From: Acidimicrobiaceae bacterium
Lineage (GTDB): Bacteria; Actinomycetota; Acidimicrobiia; Acidimicrobiales; RAAP-2
Direction of reading: 5' to 3'
NCBI GenBank assembly: GCA_027306755.1
Contig: DAHUZE010000091.1
Coordinates: forward strand, 1-38,704
Length of the DNA stretch: 38,704 nt
The position numbers and the translations under genes are program-made. The notes under the pieces are model-generated. The model made no database searches. It saw nothing but the letters and a program-made list of their open reading frames with translations, and was not told where the DNA came from. Below, piece after piece: positions 25,903 to 33,665 of this stretch (position 1 is the stretch's first letter; each line of letters starts with the position of its first letter).

Positions 25903-26021
25903 CACGCCTCCGTTCCCACGCGGGAAACCTCCGCGCGAACGGTACCTCACCACGTGCTCCAGAGCGTCACACGACCTGGGGGCTGGTACCGCGCGATCAG
26001 TGGTCCTGGTAACCTCCACAG

Positions 26022-26067
26022 AGGCGATGGAGCTCGCCTACGTGTGCCAGAAGGCTGATGGCTCCTG
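26022..26067 (+). ncRNA. Fluoride riboswitch upstream of crcB
   Basis: All consensus parts are present. Pseudoknot AGGCG (26022-26026) with CGCCU (26035-26039). P1 GGAGC (26029-26033) with GCUCC (26061-26065). P2 GCC (26046-26048) with GGC (26053-26055) and an AGAA loop. UGAUG sits at 26056-26060. The P1 3' strand GCUCCU (26061-26066) is also complementary to AGGAGC at 26100-26105, which holds the crcB Shine-Dalgarno; CCUCGU (26077-26082) can pair ACGAGG (26097-26102). Fluoride binding would keep P1 formed and free the ribosome site, giving an ON switch. TAACCT at 26010-26015 is a possible -10. Confidence 0.9.
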
Positions 26068-26108
26068 TCCGAATTGCCTCGTACGGGCATGAACGAACGA
26101 GGAGCTCG

Positions 26109-26633
26109 ATGGCATTCACCGCAAAGGGGGACGCGACGCGTCGCCCTCCCGTCGACCCCGATGTCCATGCCAGTGCGGCGGAGGAGAGGTCGCACACCCG
26201 GCGCGGCAGGCCCTCCCGACCCAACCAAGCTGTCGTCGTCGCCCTGGCATGCGGAGGTGCCGCGGGCGCGGTTGCGCGGTACGCGGTCTCGCTCGCCATG
26301 CCGGCGACGCCCGGCCAATTCCCGTGGGGCACGTTCACCATCAACGTGACGGGAAGCTTCGTCCTCGGGTTCCTTCTCGTCCTCCTGCTGGAGCGGTTCC
26401 CACGCGGTCGTCTGGCCCGCCCCGTGATCGGGACCGGGTTCCTCGGGGCGTACACGACGTTCTCGACCTACATGGTGGACGCCGTCCAGCTCGTGCACGG
26501 CGGGCACCCGGCAACCGCCGCCGCCTACGTGCTGGGCAGCCTGGCCGCCGGGCTGTTGGCCGTCTGGGCGGGAATGGCCGGCGCCCGTGTCGTCGGGAGC
26601 GCCGAGCGCTGGCTCCGGGACGGCGAGCGATGA
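26109..26633 (+). CDS. crcB: Fluoride channel CrcB/Fluc, first copy
   Basis: Dual-topology fluoride export channel subunit, 174 aa with four helices. A ~45-residue Arg/Pro-rich N-terminus precedes GGAAGAVARYAVS (TM1). Then PWGTFTINVTGSFVLGFLL carries the pore Asn, and GTGFLGAYTTFSTYMVDAV has the TTFST motif with the Phe-box. ATG 26109 is preferred, four bases after GAGGAG; an earlier ATG at 26058 lies inside the riboswitch. The stop overlaps the next ATG (ATGA). The two CrcB proteins may form a heterodimer, as known for paired Fluc genes. Expression is controlled by the fluoride riboswitch immediately upstream. Confidence 0.9.
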   Translation: MAFTAKGDATRRPPVDPDVHASAAEERSHTRRGRPSRPNQAVVVALACGGAAGAVARYAVSLAMPATPGQFPWGTFTINVTGSFVLGFLLVLLLERFPRGRLARPVIGTGFLGAYTTFSTYMVDAVQLVHGGHPATAAAYVLGSLAAGLLAVWAGMAGARVVGSAERWLRDGER

Positions 26634-26968
26634 CCGGGGCTCCGGGAACGGGCTTCGGCCGCCGGGCAGCGGTCCGGCTCACGATGTGGCTCGACGTGCG
26701 GGACCGCCACCGGCACGGGAGCCTCGGAGTGGAGTTGGTGAAGCGGGCCCGCGCGGAGGGCCTGGCAGGTGCGACGGTCTTCGAGGGGCGGCTCGGCTTC
26801 GGAGCCGGAGGCGACGTTCACCGGGAGCGCCTGTTCTCCGACGACCGGCCACTCGCCATCGTGGTCGTGGACCGGGCGGATCGGATCGAGGCGTTCCTCC
26901 AGCGGCTGGAGGGATATGCGCCGGGGGTCGTGACGACCGTCGAAGATGTCGAGATCGTCGATGTGTGA
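26630..26968 (+). CDS. DUF190 (PII-like) protein, between the crcB genes
   Basis: 112 aa, start ATG 26630 overlapping the stop of crcB by four bases. Residues RLTMWLDVRDRHRHGSLG, VKRARAEGLAGATVFEGRLGFG and PLAIVVVDRADRIEAFLQRL are the three conserved DUF190 blocks, suggesting a PII-like trimer. It is a regular partner of fluoride channels; direct function is not established. Translational coupling with crcB upstream and a 9-bp gap to the second crcB imply a fixed stoichiometry in one operon. It differs clearly from the leftward copy, so it is not a recent duplicate. Confidence 0.85.
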   Translation: MTGAPGTGFGRRAAVRLTMWLDVRDRHRHGSLGVELVKRARAEGLAGATVFEGRLGFGAGGDVHRERLFSDDRPLAIVVVDRADRIEAFLQRLEGYAPGVVTTVEDVEIVDV

Positions 26969-26977
26969 GCCCGCGCC

Positions 26978-27355
26978 GTGACCATTGCCTTCTTCCTCCT
27001 CGTCGCCGCAGGCGGCTTCGTCGGCGCCCCGGCGCGCTACCTGCTGGACCGGGCGGTCACCCAAAGGTTGGAGTCGGACCTGCCGTGGGGAACCTTCTTC
27101 GTGAACCTGTCTGGATCGCTCCTCCTCGGCCTTCTGATCGGGCTCAGCCTCAAAGGGCACCTCTCGGGCCCGGCGAAGGCGCTGCTGGCGACCGGGTTCT
27201 GCGGGGCGTACACCACCTTCTCGACGTTCACGTTCGAGACGGTCCGCCTGGTCCAGGACGGCCGCATGCTCCACGCCGCCGCGAACGCCGCTGCCAGCGC
27301 CGCCGTCGGGCTGGTGGCGGCGGCAGCCGGCTTCGCCCTGGGGCTGGCGTTCTGA
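26978..27355 (+). CDS. crcB: Fluoride channel CrcB/Fluc, second copy
   Basis: 125 aa from GTG 26978, four helices, without the N-terminal extension of the first copy. Signature segments: GGFVGAPARYLLDRAV, LPWGTFFVNLSGSLLLGLL with the pore Asn, and GFCGAYTTFSTFTFETVRL with TTFST and Phe residues. In genomes with two small crcB genes the products often assemble as antiparallel heterodimers (known for Fluc pairs); the different N-termini here fit that. It ends six bases before the convergent leftward operon. Confidence 0.88.
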   Translation: MTIAFFLLVAAGGFVGAPARYLLDRAVTQRLESDLPWGTFFVNLSGSLLLGLLIGLSLKGHLSGPAKALLATGFCGAYTTFSTFTFETVRLVQDGRMLHAAANAAASAAVGLVAAAAGFALGLAF

Positions 27356-27361
27356 CCCTGC

Positions 27362-27928
27362 TCAGGCCGGCGGCCTGCTCGCCGGGGAGGGATCGAGCGG
27401 CTCTGCGCCGGCATTGGCCAGGCCCTTCGTCACCGCCTGCAACCGGCCGAGTTGGCGCTCCGTCTCGTCGAACTCCGCCACCATGACGCCCACGAGCTCG
27501 CGCCTGGCTGCCTCCACCCGCTGCGCCATGTCGTAGCGCACCCGGCCGGCATGCTTTGCGAGCTCATCCCTCAGCCGGCGCCTCGCCGCCCCCAACGCGC
27601 GGCGCCGGCCCAGCCCACGGGGAAGCACCCAGGATGCGAGCAGGCGCCCCACCGCATCGGTGGGGCTCTCCACCGAGAGGAACAGGTAGGTGAAGTGCGG
27701 GCGCTGGGACTCGACCATCGGGACGGGCACCGCGGGCAGATGGATCTCGAACAGCTGCTCTGCCGCGCCGACCAAGTGGCCCACCCGGTCACGGGTTCGC
27801 TCGGTGTAGCGCCAGGCCACGGCGGTCCACCCGGCGGGCTCGGGCCGGCCGTCCACCAGCTCGCGGAGGCGGCGGGCGACGTCCAGCAGCTCCCCGTCAT
27901 GGCGGCCGTCGGGATCGCTCACCGCCAT
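27362..27928 (-). CDS. Unrecognised helical protein, last gene of the enolase-like/MutS-like operon
   Basis: 188 aa from ATG 27928; GTG 27922 is also possible. It begins 16 bases after the stop of the upstream MutS-like gene. The sequence is mostly helical and rich in Arg, Ala and Leu: VARRLRELVDGRPEPAGW, THLV-like EIHLPAVPVPMVE, a hydrophobic patch TYLFLSVESPTDAVGRLL, then long amphipathic helices (RRRLRDELAKHAGRVRYDM and MVAEFDETERQLGRLQAV) with coiled-coil character. The middle and end resemble the C-terminal helical region of bacterial dynamin-like GTPases, but no GTPase domain is present. I do not claim a function. Convergent with crcB. Confidence 0.6.
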   Translation of the reverse strand: MAVSDPDGRHDGELLDVARRLRELVDGRPEPAGWTAVAWRYTERTRDRVGHLVGAAEQLFEIHLPAVPVPMVESQRPHFTYLFLSVESPTDAVGRLLASWVLPRGLGRRRALGAARRRLRDELAKHAGRVRYDMAQRVEAARRELVGVMVAEFDETERQLGRLQAVTKGLANAGAEPLDPSPASRPPA

Positions 27929-27944: not shown

Positions 27945-29504
27945 CTACGCCGAGGGGCCGTGCAGGACGGCACCGGCGGGCTCCGCGGGCAGTGCCCGCT
28001 CCGGCTGCTCCTCGTCGAGCCATCCCCCCATCCGGCGGTAGAGGTCCTCGCCGAAGCTGGTGGGAAGGGGGTCGGCCACCCGCAACCGGAATGTCCGCCT
28101 CCCGTCGTCCTCCCGGACGGCACGGAGGAACAGGGTCGAGCTCGCCGCCGAGAGCCGGAAGCCGTTGGCCAGGTCGAACTGGTGCGTGACGAAGCAGATC
28201 CTGACATCAGCCTCGAGGAGCGCGCGAACCACCTGGCGCCCGATCTCCGAGCCTTCCCGCTCGTTGGTCGCGGCAAAGGACTCGTTGAACAGCACCATGC
28301 TGTGCGGGCGGATCTGGTCGGCGATCGTGCTCATGCGGCGGAGCTCCTCGTCCAGCCGGCCGCTCGTCATCGTGTCGTCTTCCTCCCGGATGAAGTGCGT
28401 GAACGTGGCGGCGGCCACGCTCGCCCGCAGGGAGGTGGCGGCCACGAACATGCCGCACTGCATCATCAGCTGCGCCGTACCCATGCTCCGCAGGAACGTG
28501 GACTTGCCGCCGGAGTTGGCACCGGTCACGATCACGAGCGTCTGACCGTCAGCCCGGACGTCGTTCCCGACCACAGGCCGGTCCGAGCGGAGCGCGAGGC
28601 TCACGTCACGGAGGTCGGTGCACGTGAACGCCCGGTCCTCCCACGGCGCCGGGTCGGGCATGCAGACCGGATGTCCCCGGGCGACCAGCTGCTCGTGCAG
28701 GTTGACGCAGGCAAGGTAGAACCCGAGCTCGGCCCGCAGCATTCTGAAGTAGCTCGCGAGGTGGTCCACCGATTGCGCCGCTGCGTTGGCGACCAGGTTG
28801 ACACCCCGGCTGAGCATGTCCGACAGCGTGTTGGCTCCGGCCTCGTCGCGCGGCGGTACGGTGAAGGAGTACGACCGCCGCGGGCCGATCCTGAGCCGAT
28901 CACGCCAGCTCCTCTGGTCAGCCGAGGTTCGGAGCACGTAGTTGATCCCGCTGTTGTCTGGGCCCAGCTCCATGCTGATCACCTCGCCGCTCCGGAACCT
29001 GAGCTGCTCGAGGTTCCGGTCCACGGTCGCCAGGTAGTCATCGTCCAAGTCCCGCTGCAGCGAGTGCAGCAAGGTCCGCAGCCCGACGGATGCAAACGTG
29101 CCTGCGTGCTGGTCGGCCAGCCGTCGCAGGTCTCGAAGCCGGACGACCGACGCGTCCAACTGGCTCACCGCTCCCGACAGGATCGACGACGGGGAGCGCG
29201 AGGAGAACCCCCAGATCCCGCGCTTGTCCTCCAAGGCGCGGACCGCCACCTCGTAGAGGTCGCGGACCACGTCGGGATGCGCGAGGCAGTCGGTCAGGAC
29301 CGCCTGGCGGTAGCCGATGACCTCGAGGTCGTCCACGCCGGCCAGCAGCACGCTCTGGGCCACCGCGTAGAGGTAGCGGTCGCCCTGCGCCATCGCGCCG
29401 AGCAGCGTCGTGAGCTCGAGGTCCGAGACGAGGTCGTCGTGGTTGGGCGGCAAAGGCGCGTCGAAGGCGTGGTCCCGTGTCTCGAAGAGCAGGTGCGCCT
29501 TCAC
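27945..29504 (-). CDS. MutS-like ATPase B (core and ATPase domains only)
   Basis: 519 aa from GTG 29504, overlapping the previous stop by GTGA. The N-terminal ~330 residues are helical and resemble the MutS lever/clamp core; no mismatch-recognition or connector domain is present, so it is not a canonical mismatch-repair MutS. The ATPase domain has Walker A TGANSGGKSTFLRSMG, TRP-like FIREEDDTMTSGRLDEELRRM, Walker B VLFNESFAATNEREG (Asn for the usual Asp, Glu kept) and the His switch CFVTHQFDLANGF. Length equals that of the upstream MutS-like A, suggesting a heterodimer. It is the third gene behind a fluoride riboswitch; mutS-like genes are recorded targets of that RNA. Confidence 0.8.
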   Translation of the reverse strand: MKAHLLFETRDHAFDAPLPPNHDDLVSDLELTTLLGAMAQGDRYLYAVAQSVLLAGVDDLEVIGYRQAVLTDCLAHPDVVRDLYEVAVRALEDKRGIWGFSSRSPSSILSGAVSQLDASVVRLRDLRRLADQHAGTFASVGLRTLLHSLQRDLDDDYLATVDRNLEQLRFRSGEVISMELGPDNSGINYVLRTSADQRSWRDRLRIGPRRSYSFTVPPRDEAGANTLSDMLSRGVNLVANAAAQSVDHLASYFRMLRAELGFYLACVNLHEQLVARGHPVCMPDPAPWEDRAFTCTDLRDVSLALRSDRPVVGNDVRADGQTLVIVTGANSGGKSTFLRSMGTAQLMMQCGMFVAATSLRASVAAATFTHFIREEDDTMTSGRLDEELRRMSTIADQIRPHSMVLFNESFAATNEREGSEIGRQVVRALLEADVRICFVTHQFDLANGFRLSAASSTLFLRAVREDDGRRTFRLRVADPLPTSFGEDLYRRMGGWLDEEQPERALPAEPAGAVLHGPSA

Positions 29505-31060
29505 GGGCCGACCCGCTCGCGTAGCCGCCCGTAGGTGACCCCGTGCTTCTCGGCGATGGCCATCGCGTAGGCCAGCCCGTCTGCCGGGGCCCGCACCACC
29601 TTGAAGGTCCGCTGGGCGGGGTCGTCGGGGACAACGGTGCTGACCATGCTCACGATCGAGGGCCCGAAGGACGCCAGCTCGTCCACGAAGGTCACGTACA
29701 CCGCAAGCAGGTCCAGCCGGACCATCTTCTCCAGAGCCCTGGCGCCCAGGAAGGCGGCATCGTGCAGGGCGGTGGACGAGAACGCCTCGTTCATGACCAC
29801 GATGCTGTCGGGGGTGGCATGGAGCAGGATGTCCCGCACAGCCAACAGATCCTCCTCCAGCTTGCCCGTCATGGTGCCCAGGTCCTCCTCCCGCCCGAAA
29901 TGGGTGAAAAGCCGGTCGAACCGGGCCAGGTGCGCCGCCGTTCCCGGCACCGGGCACCCGATGCTGGCCAGGTGGTGCAGCTGGCCGAACGTCCGGGCGA
30001 AGGTGGTCTTTCCTCCCTGGTTCGGTCCGGTGACCACGATCACACGCTCAGCCCCGTCCAGCCGCAGGTCGTTGGTGACGACGGGCTTGCCTTCCTTCAC
30101 GAGCTTGCGGGCCAGGGCGAGATCGAACGTCGCGAGCGCGAACACCCCGGCCCGCTCCCCAACCTCGGGGTAGCAGAGGGGGAGCCCGGCCGCCCGGATG
30201 GGATGCACGTATTCCAGGTACGCCAGATAGAACTGGACTTCCCGCTCGAACTCCCTGATCGATGGGTCGTAGAAATCTTGGTGGCGAGCGCAGTAGTCGT
30301 CGAGCGATCCGAATTCCTCGGGGAACAACCTGGCCACGAGCCCGAGGATCTGCTCGCTCACGTGGTACATGCCGGGCCATCCGCGGTACGCGACCCGGTA
30401 GTCCTTGGCTGCTCCCTGCTTGAACCGCTCGAACGTGTCCAGCACCTCGGCGCTGAAGTCGGCTTCACCCTCGTAGCGGCTCACCTCCACCCGGGTGCCG
30501 TGGATGCGGACGCAGTAGCGGACAGCGGCGAGCGCCGACTTCTGGGAGCGCGTCTCGGCCTCCATCTCCGAGTAGGCCGCCGACGCGAGGTAGCCCTCGA
30601 GGTGGGCCCGGAACGCTTGTAGGGCCCCTGACTCCAGCGGCGCGGCACGCAGGTGCCCGGCCAAGGCGCGGACGGCGTCGCAATAGAGGGCGACGGCATC
30701 CAGATGCCAGCCGTTGCGGTGGTGCCGGTCGGGCATCTTCTGCAGCGCCACCAGGTGCGCCCGTACTCGGCGGAGCTGTTCAACGAACGCCGACACCTCT
30801 TGGAACAACGAGCCGCGCTCCAGGTCCAAGAACACCTGCTGGCGAAAGGCGATGGCCGCGGGGTCCCGCAGCTGGCGGTAGAACAGCGAGCCGACCAGGT
30901 CGTCCTCCTGGCCCTTGGCCATGTCGGCCGCCGCCTGGTCCAGGTTGAGGTCGGCCGCGAAGGCGGGAACGCCCTCAACCGCGCCGTCCCCGTAGCCGCC
31001 GGGGGGGAACAGCAGCGTCAGAGGGGATCCCGTTGCATCGTGAGTCGCTATCCGGGTCAT
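29501..31060 (-). CDS. MutS-like ATPase A (core and ATPase domains only)
   Basis: 519 aa, ATG 31060 overlapping the enolase-like stop (ATGA). An N-terminal helical core starts TLLFPPGGY with AADLNLDQAAADMAKG. The ATPase part has Walker A VVTGPNQGGKTTFARTFG (about residue 340), the segment FTHFGREEDLGTMTGKLEEDL, Walker B IVVMNEAFSSTALHDAA (Asn in place of Asp) and, at the His-switch position, VYVTFVDELASFG, where Phe replaces His. Domains I-II of MutS are missing. Compared with B, the loss of the switch His suggests an asymmetric pair in which one ATPase is weaker (inference). Both genes are intact with no frameshift. Confidence 0.8.
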   Translation of the reverse strand: MTRIATHDATGSPLTLLFPPGGYGDGAVEGVPAFAADLNLDQAAADMAKGQEDDLVGSLFYRQLRDPAAIAFRQQVFLDLERGSLFQEVSAFVEQLRRVRAHLVALQKMPDRHHRNGWHLDAVALYCDAVRALAGHLRAAPLESGALQAFRAHLEGYLASAAYSEMEAETRSQKSALAAVRYCVRIHGTRVEVSRYEGEADFSAEVLDTFERFKQGAAKDYRVAYRGWPGMYHVSEQILGLVARLFPEEFGSLDDYCARHQDFYDPSIREFEREVQFYLAYLEYVHPIRAAGLPLCYPEVGERAGVFALATFDLALARKLVKEGKPVVTNDLRLDGAERVIVVTGPNQGGKTTFARTFGQLHHLASIGCPVPGTAAHLARFDRLFTHFGREEDLGTMTGKLEEDLLAVRDILLHATPDSIVVMNEAFSSTALHDAAFLGARALEKMVRLDLLAVYVTFVDELASFGPSIVSMVSTVVPDDPAQRTFKVVRAPADGLAYAMAIAEKHGVTYGRLRERVGP

Positions 31061-32265
31061 CGCCGGCGCACACCGAAGGGGACCGCGATCGCCTCCTCAG
31101 CGATGGCCAGCAGGCGATCAGCCACGAGCGCTCGCTGCCCCGTGGGCGGCGCCCCCACCTTGATCTGCCCGCACCCCACAGCCACCGACAGATCCGCGGT
31201 GAACGGGTCGAGTGGCGTGCCGGCGCAGTGCGAGACCATGGCGCCGAACCCTTCTTCGTATGCAGACCGGATGGCGGAGATCGCCTCGGTCACCGTTCCG
31301 ATCCGGCACGGATCGATGGCTGCCGCCGTCCCGCGGCCCCATGCCGCGGCCGCAACGATCTCCAGCGACGGCGCAGCGTAGCTGCCGCCACCCACGACCT
31401 GAACGCGACTCCCCAGCCGGCGGGTGAGCAGCTCCCAACCCTTGGGGTCCGTGTCGGCCATGCCGTCCTCGATGGAGGTGATGGGAAAGCGCTCCACCAG
31501 GGCGCCCAGGTACTCTACGAAGTCGGCCGCGCTGAACCGGAACCCGTTCAGCCGGTACTCCCCCTCCGGCCCGACGAGCCGAGACGCCCCGATGTCGAGC
31601 GCGATCCCCACTTCCGTGCCCGCCACGTATCCCGATGTGGCGATGGCCTGGCACAGCAGGTCCAAGACGTCCTCCGGGGCCTGGAGCGCGGGCACGAAGC
31701 CGCCCTGGGCGGCGTGGTCGGTGCCCAGCCCGCAGGCCGCGATCGCCCGTCGAAGGCCGGCATGGATCTCGCTCCCGGCCTGGGCGGCGGCGCGAGTGGA
31801 CGGCGCGCCGATCGGCACCACCATGAGCTCCCGCACGTCGAGGCGATTGGCAGCTGGGCTGCCGCGCACGGCGGAGAAGTACGGGACGGGAAGCCGCTCT
31901 GGAGACGGGTGCGGGAGCCACCGGTACAGCGGCTGGCCGCCCTGCACGGCGAACGCCCGCGCCGCGGCCACCGAGACGCCGATGGTGGCATCTGCGCCAA
32001 GGTGCTCCTTCGCCCGGGTGCCATCGAGGTTGCAGAGGACGGCATCGAGCTCTTCGAGCGAGGCCCAGCGCCTTCCCACGAGCTCTGGGGCAAGTCGCCG
32101 CTCGATCGTCTCGACGGCCGACGGCGCGCACGCCGGGACCAACGCCCTCGCGTGGACGGTCCCCGCCTCGATCCGAACATCGACGGCCGCCCGTCCGGGC
32201 TCGTCGAGGACCCTCCGCGCGCTCAGCGAAGTGATCTCGAGGGTCGGCCCCGACACCACGGTCAT
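31057..32265 (-). CDS. Enolase homologue, probably without enolase activity
   Basis: 402 aa from ATG 32265; GTG 32337 would add 24 residues. Conserved enolase segments: HLGADATIGVSVAAARAFA, VRELMVVPIGA (Glu168 of yeast kept), ALDIGAS (Asp246 kept), ITSIEDGMAD (Glu295 kept), MVSHCAG (His373 kept) and GQIKVGAP (Lys396 kept). But the catalytic Lys345 position is Asp (AAIDPCRIGT), Glu211 is Gln (AAQGGF), the Mg ligand Asp320 is Gly (VVGGGSY), the His159 loop is shortened without His, and the SGASTG loop is absent. A fold-retaining pseudoenzyme or altered-reaction enzyme is likely. First gene behind a fluoride riboswitch; real enolase is a classic fluoride target. Confidence 0.82.
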   Translation of the reverse strand: MTVVSGPTLEITSLSARRVLDEPGRAAVDVRIEAGTVHARALVPACAPSAVETIERRLAPELVGRRWASLEELDAVLCNLDGTRAKEHLGADATIGVSVAAARAFAVQGGQPLYRWLPHPSPERLPVPYFSAVRGSPAANRLDVRELMVVPIGAPSTRAAAQAGSEIHAGLRRAIAACGLGTDHAAQGGFVPALQAPEDVLDLLCQAIATSGYVAGTEVGIALDIGASRLVGPEGEYRLNGFRFSAADFVEYLGALVERFPITSIEDGMADTDPKGWELLTRRLGSRVQVVGGGSYAAPSLEIVAAAAWGRGTAAAIDPCRIGTVTEAISAIRSAYEEGFGAMVSHCAGTPLDPFTADLSVAVGCGQIKVGAPPTGQRALVADRLLAIAEEAIAVPFGVRRR

Positions 32266-32329: not shown

Positions 32330-32362
32330 CCTGGCACCTCACTCTCTCGAGGTTCGACCAGG
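32330..32362 (-). promoter_or_regulatory. Hairpin competing with riboswitch P1 (expression platform)
   Basis: On the minus strand CCUGG (32362-32358) can pair CCAGG (32334-32330), stacked on ACCUC (32353-32349) with GAGGU (32340-32336). CCUGG uses the last bases of the aptamer P1 strand, so this hairpin and the fluoride-bound aptamer exclude each other. The stem buries GTG 32337, an alternative start of the enolase-like gene. Confidence 0.55.
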
Positions 32363-32405
32363 AGCCATCAGCCACTGCGGCAGTTCCGGCGAGCTCCATC
32401 GCCGC
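32355..32405 (-). ncRNA. Fluoride riboswitch upstream of enolase-like/MutS-like operon
   Basis: Read leftward: GGCG then AUGGAGC then UCGCC, GGAACUGCC, GCAGU, GGCUGAUG, GCUCCUGG. Pseudoknot GGCG/CGCC, P1 GGAGC/GCUCC, P2 GCC/GGC and the UGAUG element are all exact and match the copy before crcB closely. A TACCAT at 32416-32411 (minus) is a good -10, placing the transcript start at the aptamer's first base. The gene start is 90-140 bases downstream. Confidence 0.9.
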
Positions 32406-32441
32406 TTCCCATGGTAGTTCGAGCCTCGCCGTGCCAGCCCA

Positions 32442-32492: not shown

Positions 32493-33665
32493 TCAGAAAG
32501 ACTCGATGAGCAGCCGGCTGGCGCCGCCCTGCAGCTCTACCTCGTAACCCGAGCCACCCGCCGGGCCCGAGGAGAAGCGATGGGCGCCGGCGGCGGAACG
32601 GAGCCGGACGCCGTCCACCACCACCTCGGCCGCGCCGCCCAAGATGCGCAACCCCACGGAAACCCCAGCGGGCCTGCGGACCACCAGGCGCCCCGCTCCC
32701 CCCAGGATCCGCACGGGCACCAGTCCCTCGGGTGACGGGAGGGACAGCTCGAGCTGGCGGGCGCCCCCCCGCAGCATCAGGGCTGACAGCCGGCCGCCCC
32801 GCAGGTCCGCCTCCAGGTGCGAGCACCCGCCGTTGATCTCGAGCGTCCAGCGCACCTCCCGGCTGATCAATAGCTCGCCCCGGGCGGCGCCGCGGGCCCG
32901 GCCCCGCAACTGCACCAGGACGTGGTTCGACCAGGCCCGGACCGACGGCGTCGGACCGCCCAGGTCCACGCGGCACAGGGTGCTCCCGAGCTCGGCCGCG
33001 GCCAGGCGCAGACGTCCCGGCAGGCCGGCCACGTGCAGCACGGCGTCAGCGTGGCCGGCCATGGGGACCGCCACCACGCCGTCGGGCTGGCGGGAGACAG
33101 GCTCCCCGCTGCGCAGGTAGAGGGTGTGCCGGGCCAACATCTGACGGGCTTCGCCGATGAACCGGGCCACGGTCTCCAGCTCGTCCGGGCGGAAGCGGGC
33201 ATGCAGCCGGTGGGCATCGGCGATCATCGGTCCCAGCACCGCGGCCAGGTCGCCGCCGCGCTCAGGCACGGCCTCCACCAGGACCCGGCGCCGGTCCAGG
33301 GGATCCGCCTCCCGCCGCACGCGCCCCTGACCCGAGAGGCGGTCCACGACGCCGGTGATGGCGCCGGTGCTGAGCCCCGTGCGCTCGGCGAGGCGCCCGG
33401 GAGTGCACGCACCCTCCAGCAGCAGGAGGGTGAGGCAGACGAAGTCCGCGGTCGTCATGTCCAGGCGGGCGGCCACGGCGTGGAGGAAGAGATCGGACTC
33501 CAGGCTGTGGGCCCGGAAGGCGGCGACCAGCCGTTCGTGGATGTCGCCCGCGGCCCCAGCACCGGTGGCCCCAGCACCGGTGGCCCCAGCACCCGTGGCC
33601 GCTGCGGTGTCCTGCACGCCGGCACCAGAGCGCTCCTGGGCCTGGGACCTTGACGGATGCCTCAC
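32493..33665 (-). CDS. MarR-family regulator fused to a C-terminal beta-rich domain
   Basis: 390 aa from GTG 33665. After a Gly/Ala repeat (AGATGAGATGAGAAG), residues ~40-155 form a MarR winged helix: MTTADFVCLTLLLLEGACTP, GRLAERTGLSTGAITGVVDR as the recognition helix, and RREADPLDRRRVLVE as the wing. Residues ~200-390 are a repeated beta pattern (LRGGRLSALMLRGGARQLEL, RILGGAGRLVVRRPAGV, RILGGAAEVVVDGV, LQGGASRLLIESF) resembling DUF4097-like adhesin/beta-helix domains. Such a fusion is unusual; MarR proteins are normally ~150 aa. It diverges from the DrrAB-like transporter, and a palindrome at 33676-33690 sits between the two starts, so it probably represses that transporter. Confidence 0.78.
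   Translation of the reverse strand: MRHPSRSQAQERSGAGVQDTAAATGAGATGAGATGAGAAGDIHERLVAAFRAHSLESDLFLHAVAARLDMTTADFVCLTLLLLEGACTPGRLAERTGLSTGAITGVVDRLSGQGRVRREADPLDRRRVLVEAVPERGGDLAAVLGPMIADAHRLHARFRPDELETVARFIGEARQMLARHTLYLRSGEPVSRQPDGVVAVPMAGHADAVLHVAGLPGRLRLAAAELGSTLCRVDLGGPTPSVRAWSNHVLVQLRGRARGAARGELLISREVRWTLEINGGCSHLEADLRGGRLSALMLRGGARQLELSLPSPEGLVPVRILGGAGRLVVRRPAGVSVGLRILGGAAEVVVDGVRLRSAAGAHRFSSGPAGGSGYEVELQGGASRLLIESF

Follow-up and report, generated by a model that had tools for sequence, protein, structure and literature searches.

The window, by which we mean the whole stretch of 38,704 nucleotides that was analysed, belongs to a genome of 2.55 Mb which is 82% complete. Two converging operons are found in it, each with its own fluoride riboswitch: on the minus strand an enolase-like gene is followed by a pair of MutS-like ATPases, which we will call MutSA and MutSB; on the plus strand a DUF190 gene lies between two crcB genes. 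All features are listed in Table 1. The riboswitch which the initial annotation had placed upstream of the enolase-like gene is well above its gathering score. Its aptamer core is conserved across nine aligned aptamers, including that of the crcB operon. In the leader an alternative hairpin is predicted which overlaps the 3' half of the aptamer, with an overall z of only -1.5. The enolase-like frame starts with an ATG at 32265, 86 nt downstream of the riboswitch, and its stop codon at 31057 overlaps the start of MutSA in the sequence ATGA. The stop of MutSA overlaps the start of MutSB in the same way, with GTGA.

Table 1. Features of the two fluoride operons and of the adjoining regulator gene
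Feature	Position	Strand	Basis
Fluoride riboswitch aptamer (RF01734), head of operon	32352..32412	-	Rfam, 50 bits (gathering score 34)
Pseudo-enolase, 402 aa, enolase fold with dismantled active site	31057..32265	-	Pfam, NCBIfam, alignments, AlphaFold2, tree
MutS-like ATPase A, 519 aa	29501..31060	-	MutS_V, family alignment, homologues
MutS-like ATPase B, GTG start, begins VKAHLLF at 29504	27945..29504	-	MutS_V, alignment
188-aa protein, final gene of the minus-strand run	27362..27928	-	Homologues near fluoride islands
Second fluoride riboswitch, 5' of the crcB operon	26014..26074	+	33 bits (Rfam cut-off 34)
crcB/Fluc fluoride exporter, copy 1 (ORF limits)	26058..26633	+	PF02537, 4.7e-29
DUF190 protein between the crcB copies	26633..26968	+	PF02641, 5.8e-21
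crcB/Fluc fluoride exporter, copy 2	26978..27355	+	PF02537, 1.3e-30; TIGR00494, 98.5 bits, above cut-off
MarR-type regulator with long C-terminal part, just 5' of the pseudo-enolase operon	32493-33665	-

Some of the neighbouring genes have features of their own. The first crcB copy probably starts later than its open frame, since the CrcB domain begins at residue 62. DUF190 (COG1993) repeatedly adjoins crcB or enolase in fluoride islands and at many MutSA loci. The MarR-type regulator is 69% identical to the gene in the same place in a relative (L043:7042-8265). The 188-aa protein has no Pfam or NCBIfam match above cut-off. Its homologues are found in about a dozen loci near islands with fluoride riboswitches, for example L050:7007-7405, L141:7026-7385 and L182:7040-7411; it is a possible unnamed gene of the fluoride response.

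The enolase-like protein, which we will call pseudo-enolase, matches the Pfam domains Enolase_C (4e-53) and Enolase_N (2e-18). Its score with the TIGR01060 eno model is 268.1 bits, below the curated equivalog cut-off of 300. We have read its active site from alignments with solved enolases and with 30 enolases derived from the loci studied here, using the yeast numbering. The catalytic set comprised the S39 loop, H159, E168, E211, D246, E295, D320, K345, H373, R374, S375 and K396. The initial annotation had described an Asp in place of the catalytic Lys, a Gln in place of the acid/base Glu, a Gly in place of one Mg-ligand Asp and the absence of both the H159-type and the SGASTG loops. All these changes are present in the alignments: K345 is replaced by D, E211 by Q and D320 by G; the H159 loop reads RGSPAAN and has lost the histidine; the position of the catalytic SGASTG loop reads VPACAPS and is followed by a gap of 23 residues. 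Two further losses had not been listed, R374 to C and S375 to A. The protein retains E168, D246, E295, H373 and K396, so that six of the 11 catalytic residues and the catalytic loop have been lost. The N-terminal stretch DSRGRPT is also altered, to DEPGRAA. A compensating frameshift or a sequencing error was considered as the origin of the lost motifs and rejected: enolase motifs are absent from the other frames.

By the established mechanism, enolase cannot catalyse its reaction once K345, E211 and a Mg ligand have gone, and the pseudo-enolase is thus predicted to have no enolase activity. The genome has an intact eno (L001) on another contig, with 401 bits and intact motifs, as the initial annotation had wished to see confirmed. 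Its statement that a protein with such a dismantled active site cannot simply replace enolase agrees with these observations. The predicted fold is maintained: the AlphaFold2 model has a pLDDT of 89.7 and a pTM of 0.90, with a TM score of 0.93 to Legionella enolase. The weaker segments of the model include residues 291–300, 341–350 and 371–380, which are near D320, R374 and the region after K396.

The two MutS-like proteins carry the ATPase domain V of MutS (PF00488). Only this domain was found in the Pfam scan, with no mismatch-binding domain I, and the scores of the pair with curated mutS are 69.6 and 49.3 bits, far below the cut-off of 641.7. By the tests that we have run they do not appear to be mismatch-repair MutS proteins. 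We searched 84,980 species genomes for MutSA, could confirm 580 relatives and retained the 80 best loci. MutSB follows MutSA in nearly all of them, and many are flanked by genes for CrcB, DUF190 and enolase. We also searched for riboswitches with a covariance model built from the nine aptamers with a structure drawn by hand, accepting matches down to E 0.1; a model based on RNAalifold was dropped, as its structure differed from the known aptamer. Among these best loci out of the 580, a fluoride riboswitch is found at most 1.1 kb upstream on the same strand in 49 of 79, both in bacteria and in archaea. MutSA is present in 12 of the 13 genomes of the genus, versus 3 of 148 in a sample of the class. 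Its distribution and surroundings mark the MutS-like pair as a fluoride system that is widespread, in many bacterial phyla and in archaea. A peculiarity of both proteins is their Walker B motif, which ends in NE and not in the usual DE in all 73 MutSA copies and in 68 of the 69 MutSB copies which could be read with a simple pattern. In the window these residues are N424-E425 of MutSA and N429-E430 of MutSB (relatives: L043-L122). The presence of Asn instead of the Asp on the Mg side might matter for resistance to trapping by Mg-fluoride.

Enolases are common in fluoride islands. All the others with readable key residues keep the full catalytic set, with one exception. This second degenerate enolase is found in another species of the same genus (G1032, L176:14649-15854). 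It has lost the catalytic loop, H159 (now D), E168 (G), E211 (D), D320 (G) and K345 (G), and it retains R374 and S375. Its identity is 45% with the window copy and 55% with the intact enolase of locus L050. This L050 enolase does not differ in a single letter from the one in genome G1073, of the same family as the window. The G1032 copy has an open frame, and a MutSA-MutSB pair follows it at a distance of about 1 kb, without overlap; the riboswitch match upstream of the copy itself is weak, with 17 bits. The island where it is found (L176, G1032:C305) is complex: within 20 kb it has two MutSA/MutSB pairs, an intact accessory enolase, the pseudo-enolase and at least six strong fluoride riboswitches.

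The phylogenetic tree places the two degenerate copies as sisters, with support 99/95–96. They adjoin the intact enolases of L050 and L196 (99/96) and are far from the housekeeping enolases, including L001 of the same genome. The terminal branches are long, with 1.95 changes per column for the window copy and 0.97 for the G1032 copy, and long-branch attraction is a concern for the sister grouping. Against it speaks the fact that the intact L050 enolase is the most similar sequence for both copies, and that they share specific derived residues. One of these is the change of D320 to Gly; as both copies have it, the Mg site had probably been lost already in their common ancestor. From the tree we conclude that the origin of the pseudo-enolase lies among the accessory enolases found in fluoride islands of actinobacteria, and not in the housekeeping eno.

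Other degenerate copies appear to be rare. The second copy was found by the search of the genus only, and 11 of the 13 genomes of the genus, several of them incomplete, show none. When 172 genomes of the family were searched with a profile made from the two copies, the best matches that were checked included no further one. Wider searches covered 396 genomes in the phylum, 395 in the class and 397 in the order, and no pseudo-enolase was seen among their top matches: those checked are intact or, if broken by a stop, otherwise canonical. On plasmids none was found above 42% identity, and none was found in viral contigs. An accessory enolase broken by a stop is L141:7989-9245(-) (G433:C90), near two fluoride riboswitches, which has a premature in-frame stop in the catalytic loop and is otherwise canonical.

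Has the pseudo-enolase been maintained by selection, or is it decaying? We had considered the open frame as a proof of selection and have discarded it as too weak. In a neutral simulation of substitutions which scores nonsense changes only, a frame without stop remains with a chance of 2–28%; the translation of MutSA is also likely to be coupled to this frame, and so its being open proves little. Instead we have studied the pattern of substitutions outside the active site, at positions whose ancestral residue is known, in comparison with 500 neutral runs. In the window copy the changes at these sites have a mean BLOSUM62 value of +0.27 versus about -0.9 under neutrality, and none of the 500 runs reaches it. 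Only 4% of the changed hydrophobic sites have become polar, charged, Pro or Gly, versus about 40% expected. In the G1032 copy the observed BLOSUM value is also reached by none of the 500 runs.

If the gene had decayed neutrally after the loss of catalysis, one would expect the damage outside the active site to be no smaller than within it. The loss is concentrated in the active-site region: in the window copy 24 of its 42 sites are lost versus 55 of 167 elsewhere (p=0.004), in the G1032 copy 19 of 42 versus 40 of 167 (p=0.007). This region is a set which we have chosen from known enolase residues and their neighbours; if it is restricted to the 11 catalytic residues, the contrast does not reach significance (p=0.20). 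The two copies tend to retain the same positions outside the active-site region (odds ratio 3.0, p=0.003); the value falls to p=0.043 without the shared derived sites, and part of the correlation stems from their shared stem. The dN/dS between the two degenerate copies is about 0.44, with dS saturated, versus 0.20 for intact pairs, and 40% of the positions which are invariant in the relatives have changed in the window copy. Constraint on the degenerate copies, as far as it can be read from these values, is relaxed and not absent. Some of the conservative change may predate the loss of catalysis. From the substitution pattern we conclude that the enolase fold of the pseudo-enolase has been under selection. 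In two sister copies we thus find catalytic residues lost and a fold under selection, as in a pseudoenzyme.

The best explanation that we can offer is that this protein is a fluoride-inducible pseudoenzyme which derives from an accessory enolase of fluoride islands and has been retained for a purpose other than catalysis; a partnership with the MutS-like ATPases is plausible. We give this explanation an even chance of being correct. A role of the protein itself had been advanced in the initial annotation, and it is favoured by the fold-preserving change in both copies of the lineage and by their common place upstream of the MutS-like pair. The main rival sees in it a relic, an accessory enolase in decay, whose frame would be kept solely by translational coupling to the overlapping MutSA while the protein is idle. 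The ATGA overlap would fit such a relic, as do the many changes at invariant positions, the chance of finding no stop in the neutral simulation, the premature stop in the island enolase of G433 and the fact that only two degenerate copies are known. However, coupling would not preserve a hydrophobic core or conservative change, which no neutral run has reproduced, nor would it explain why, in both copies, positions outside the active site are less affected than those within it. The G1032 frame has stayed open with no MutSA overlap, and the window copy gives a confident fold model. We consider the relic possible, but unlikely.

Other roles for a retained protein appear less probable still. Enolase is normally a dimer, and an inactive subunit could pair with an intact enolase, either housekeeping or accessory, and tune or protect it under fluoride. 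The fold appears to be retained in the model and intact enolases are present in both genomes, but the DSRGRPT stretch, which is near the usual dimer contact region, is altered, and 11 genomes of the genus show no such protein; we find this reading improbable. An enzyme with a new chemistry within the enolase superfamily might explain why K396, E168, D246 and E295 are retained in the window copy. Yet the sister copies have replaced K345, E211 and H159 by different residues and both have lost the Mg ligand, which is unlike the formation of one new active site, and the weaker segments of the model include active-site loops (291–300, 371–380). A new chemistry is therefore quite improbable. The initial annotation had also suggested a decoy which binds Mg-fluoride-phosphate. 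A fluoride riboswitch and a partial metal site would suit a decoy that soaks up this complex, but D320, K345, R374, S375 and the closing loop have all been lost in the window copy, and it is implausible that a protein would sequester a small ion stoichiometrically. We hardly believe in it.

Returning to the pseudoenzyme with a non-catalytic role, a sequence of events may be proposed. Fluoride would bind the aptamer in the leader and switch on the operon, and the pseudo-enolase would be made in coupled amounts with the two MutS-like ATPases. It would then act without catalysis, most plausibly as a partner, an adaptor or a substrate mimic of these ATPases, which in turn may repair or protect phosphoryl enzymes poisoned by fluoride, such as enolase. 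The ATPases are favoured as partners because both degenerate copies lie upstream of MutSA and the three frames of the window overlap. A scaffold or a regulator for the ATPases, which had been suggested from the start, is a plausible form of this role. The exact partner has lower odds, in our estimate, than the pseudoenzyme reading as such. The existence of only two copies and their absence from most genomes of the genus indicate that the pseudo-enolase is not essential to the MutS system. In a rather unlikely version of this scheme the pseudo-enolase is a dedicated partner of the pair, as a mimic of its substrate or an adaptor, and the pair serves not in DNA repair but in an ATP-driven rescue of enzymes poisoned by Mg-fluoride-phosphate, with enolase as one of the main clients.

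Several elements of this locus are already known, namely the riboswitch and its links with enolase and with MutS. Enolase genes have been described in fluoride operons (PMC11139923, PMC5533749), and the eno of Enterobacter cloacae FRM is an accessory enolase linked to a riboswitch (PMC5533749). The pseudo-enolase is similar to such enolases (TIGR01060/PF00113; E. cloacae FRM eno) in its fold, family, upstream fluoride riboswitch and island setting. It differs from them by the loss of six catalytic residues and of the catalytic loop, with a score below the eno cut-off. Enolase genes linked to a riboswitch are read in the literature as an extra supply of enzyme, which the pseudo-enolase is not expected to give. 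PRK08350 (NF006223) is also enolase-like and modelled apart from true enolase, but it is a different family: the pseudo-enolase scores 41.6 bits with a cut-off of 624. In the part of the literature that was searched we did not find a retained pseudo-enolase in a fluoride operon.

Weinberg reported in 2010 that the crcB (fluoride) RNA motif is associated with mutS (PMC2864571). The window is similar, with the same riboswitch upstream of genes with a MutS domain. It differs by having the pseudo-enolase gene between the riboswitch and the MutS-like pair, and in this pair Pfam finds the ATPase domain only. No tested function of the pair turned up in the literature searched. KamC (NF052383), the MutS-like reactivase ATPase of lysine 5,6-aminomutase, gives weak matches of 33.6 and 59.2 bits with a cut-off of 300. 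It offers by its name a precedent for a MutS-like ATPase which services an enzyme, and the connection with the present pair would be one of analogy. No aminomutase was recognised among the neighbour genes scanned; a literature search on KamC found nothing. Since the ATPases do not appear to be mismatch-repair MutS and have this weak KamC match, it is reasonable, though unproven, to think of a rescue of enzymes.

When a fluoride riboswitch precedes an enolase gene, it is usually interpreted as boosting the supply of an inhibited enzyme. A degenerate copy which conserves the fold suggests that enolase-shaped proteins can serve another use in the fluoride response. The pseudo-enolase also draws attention to the MutS-like pair, and its connection with enolase would provide a testable handle on that set of fluoride genes.
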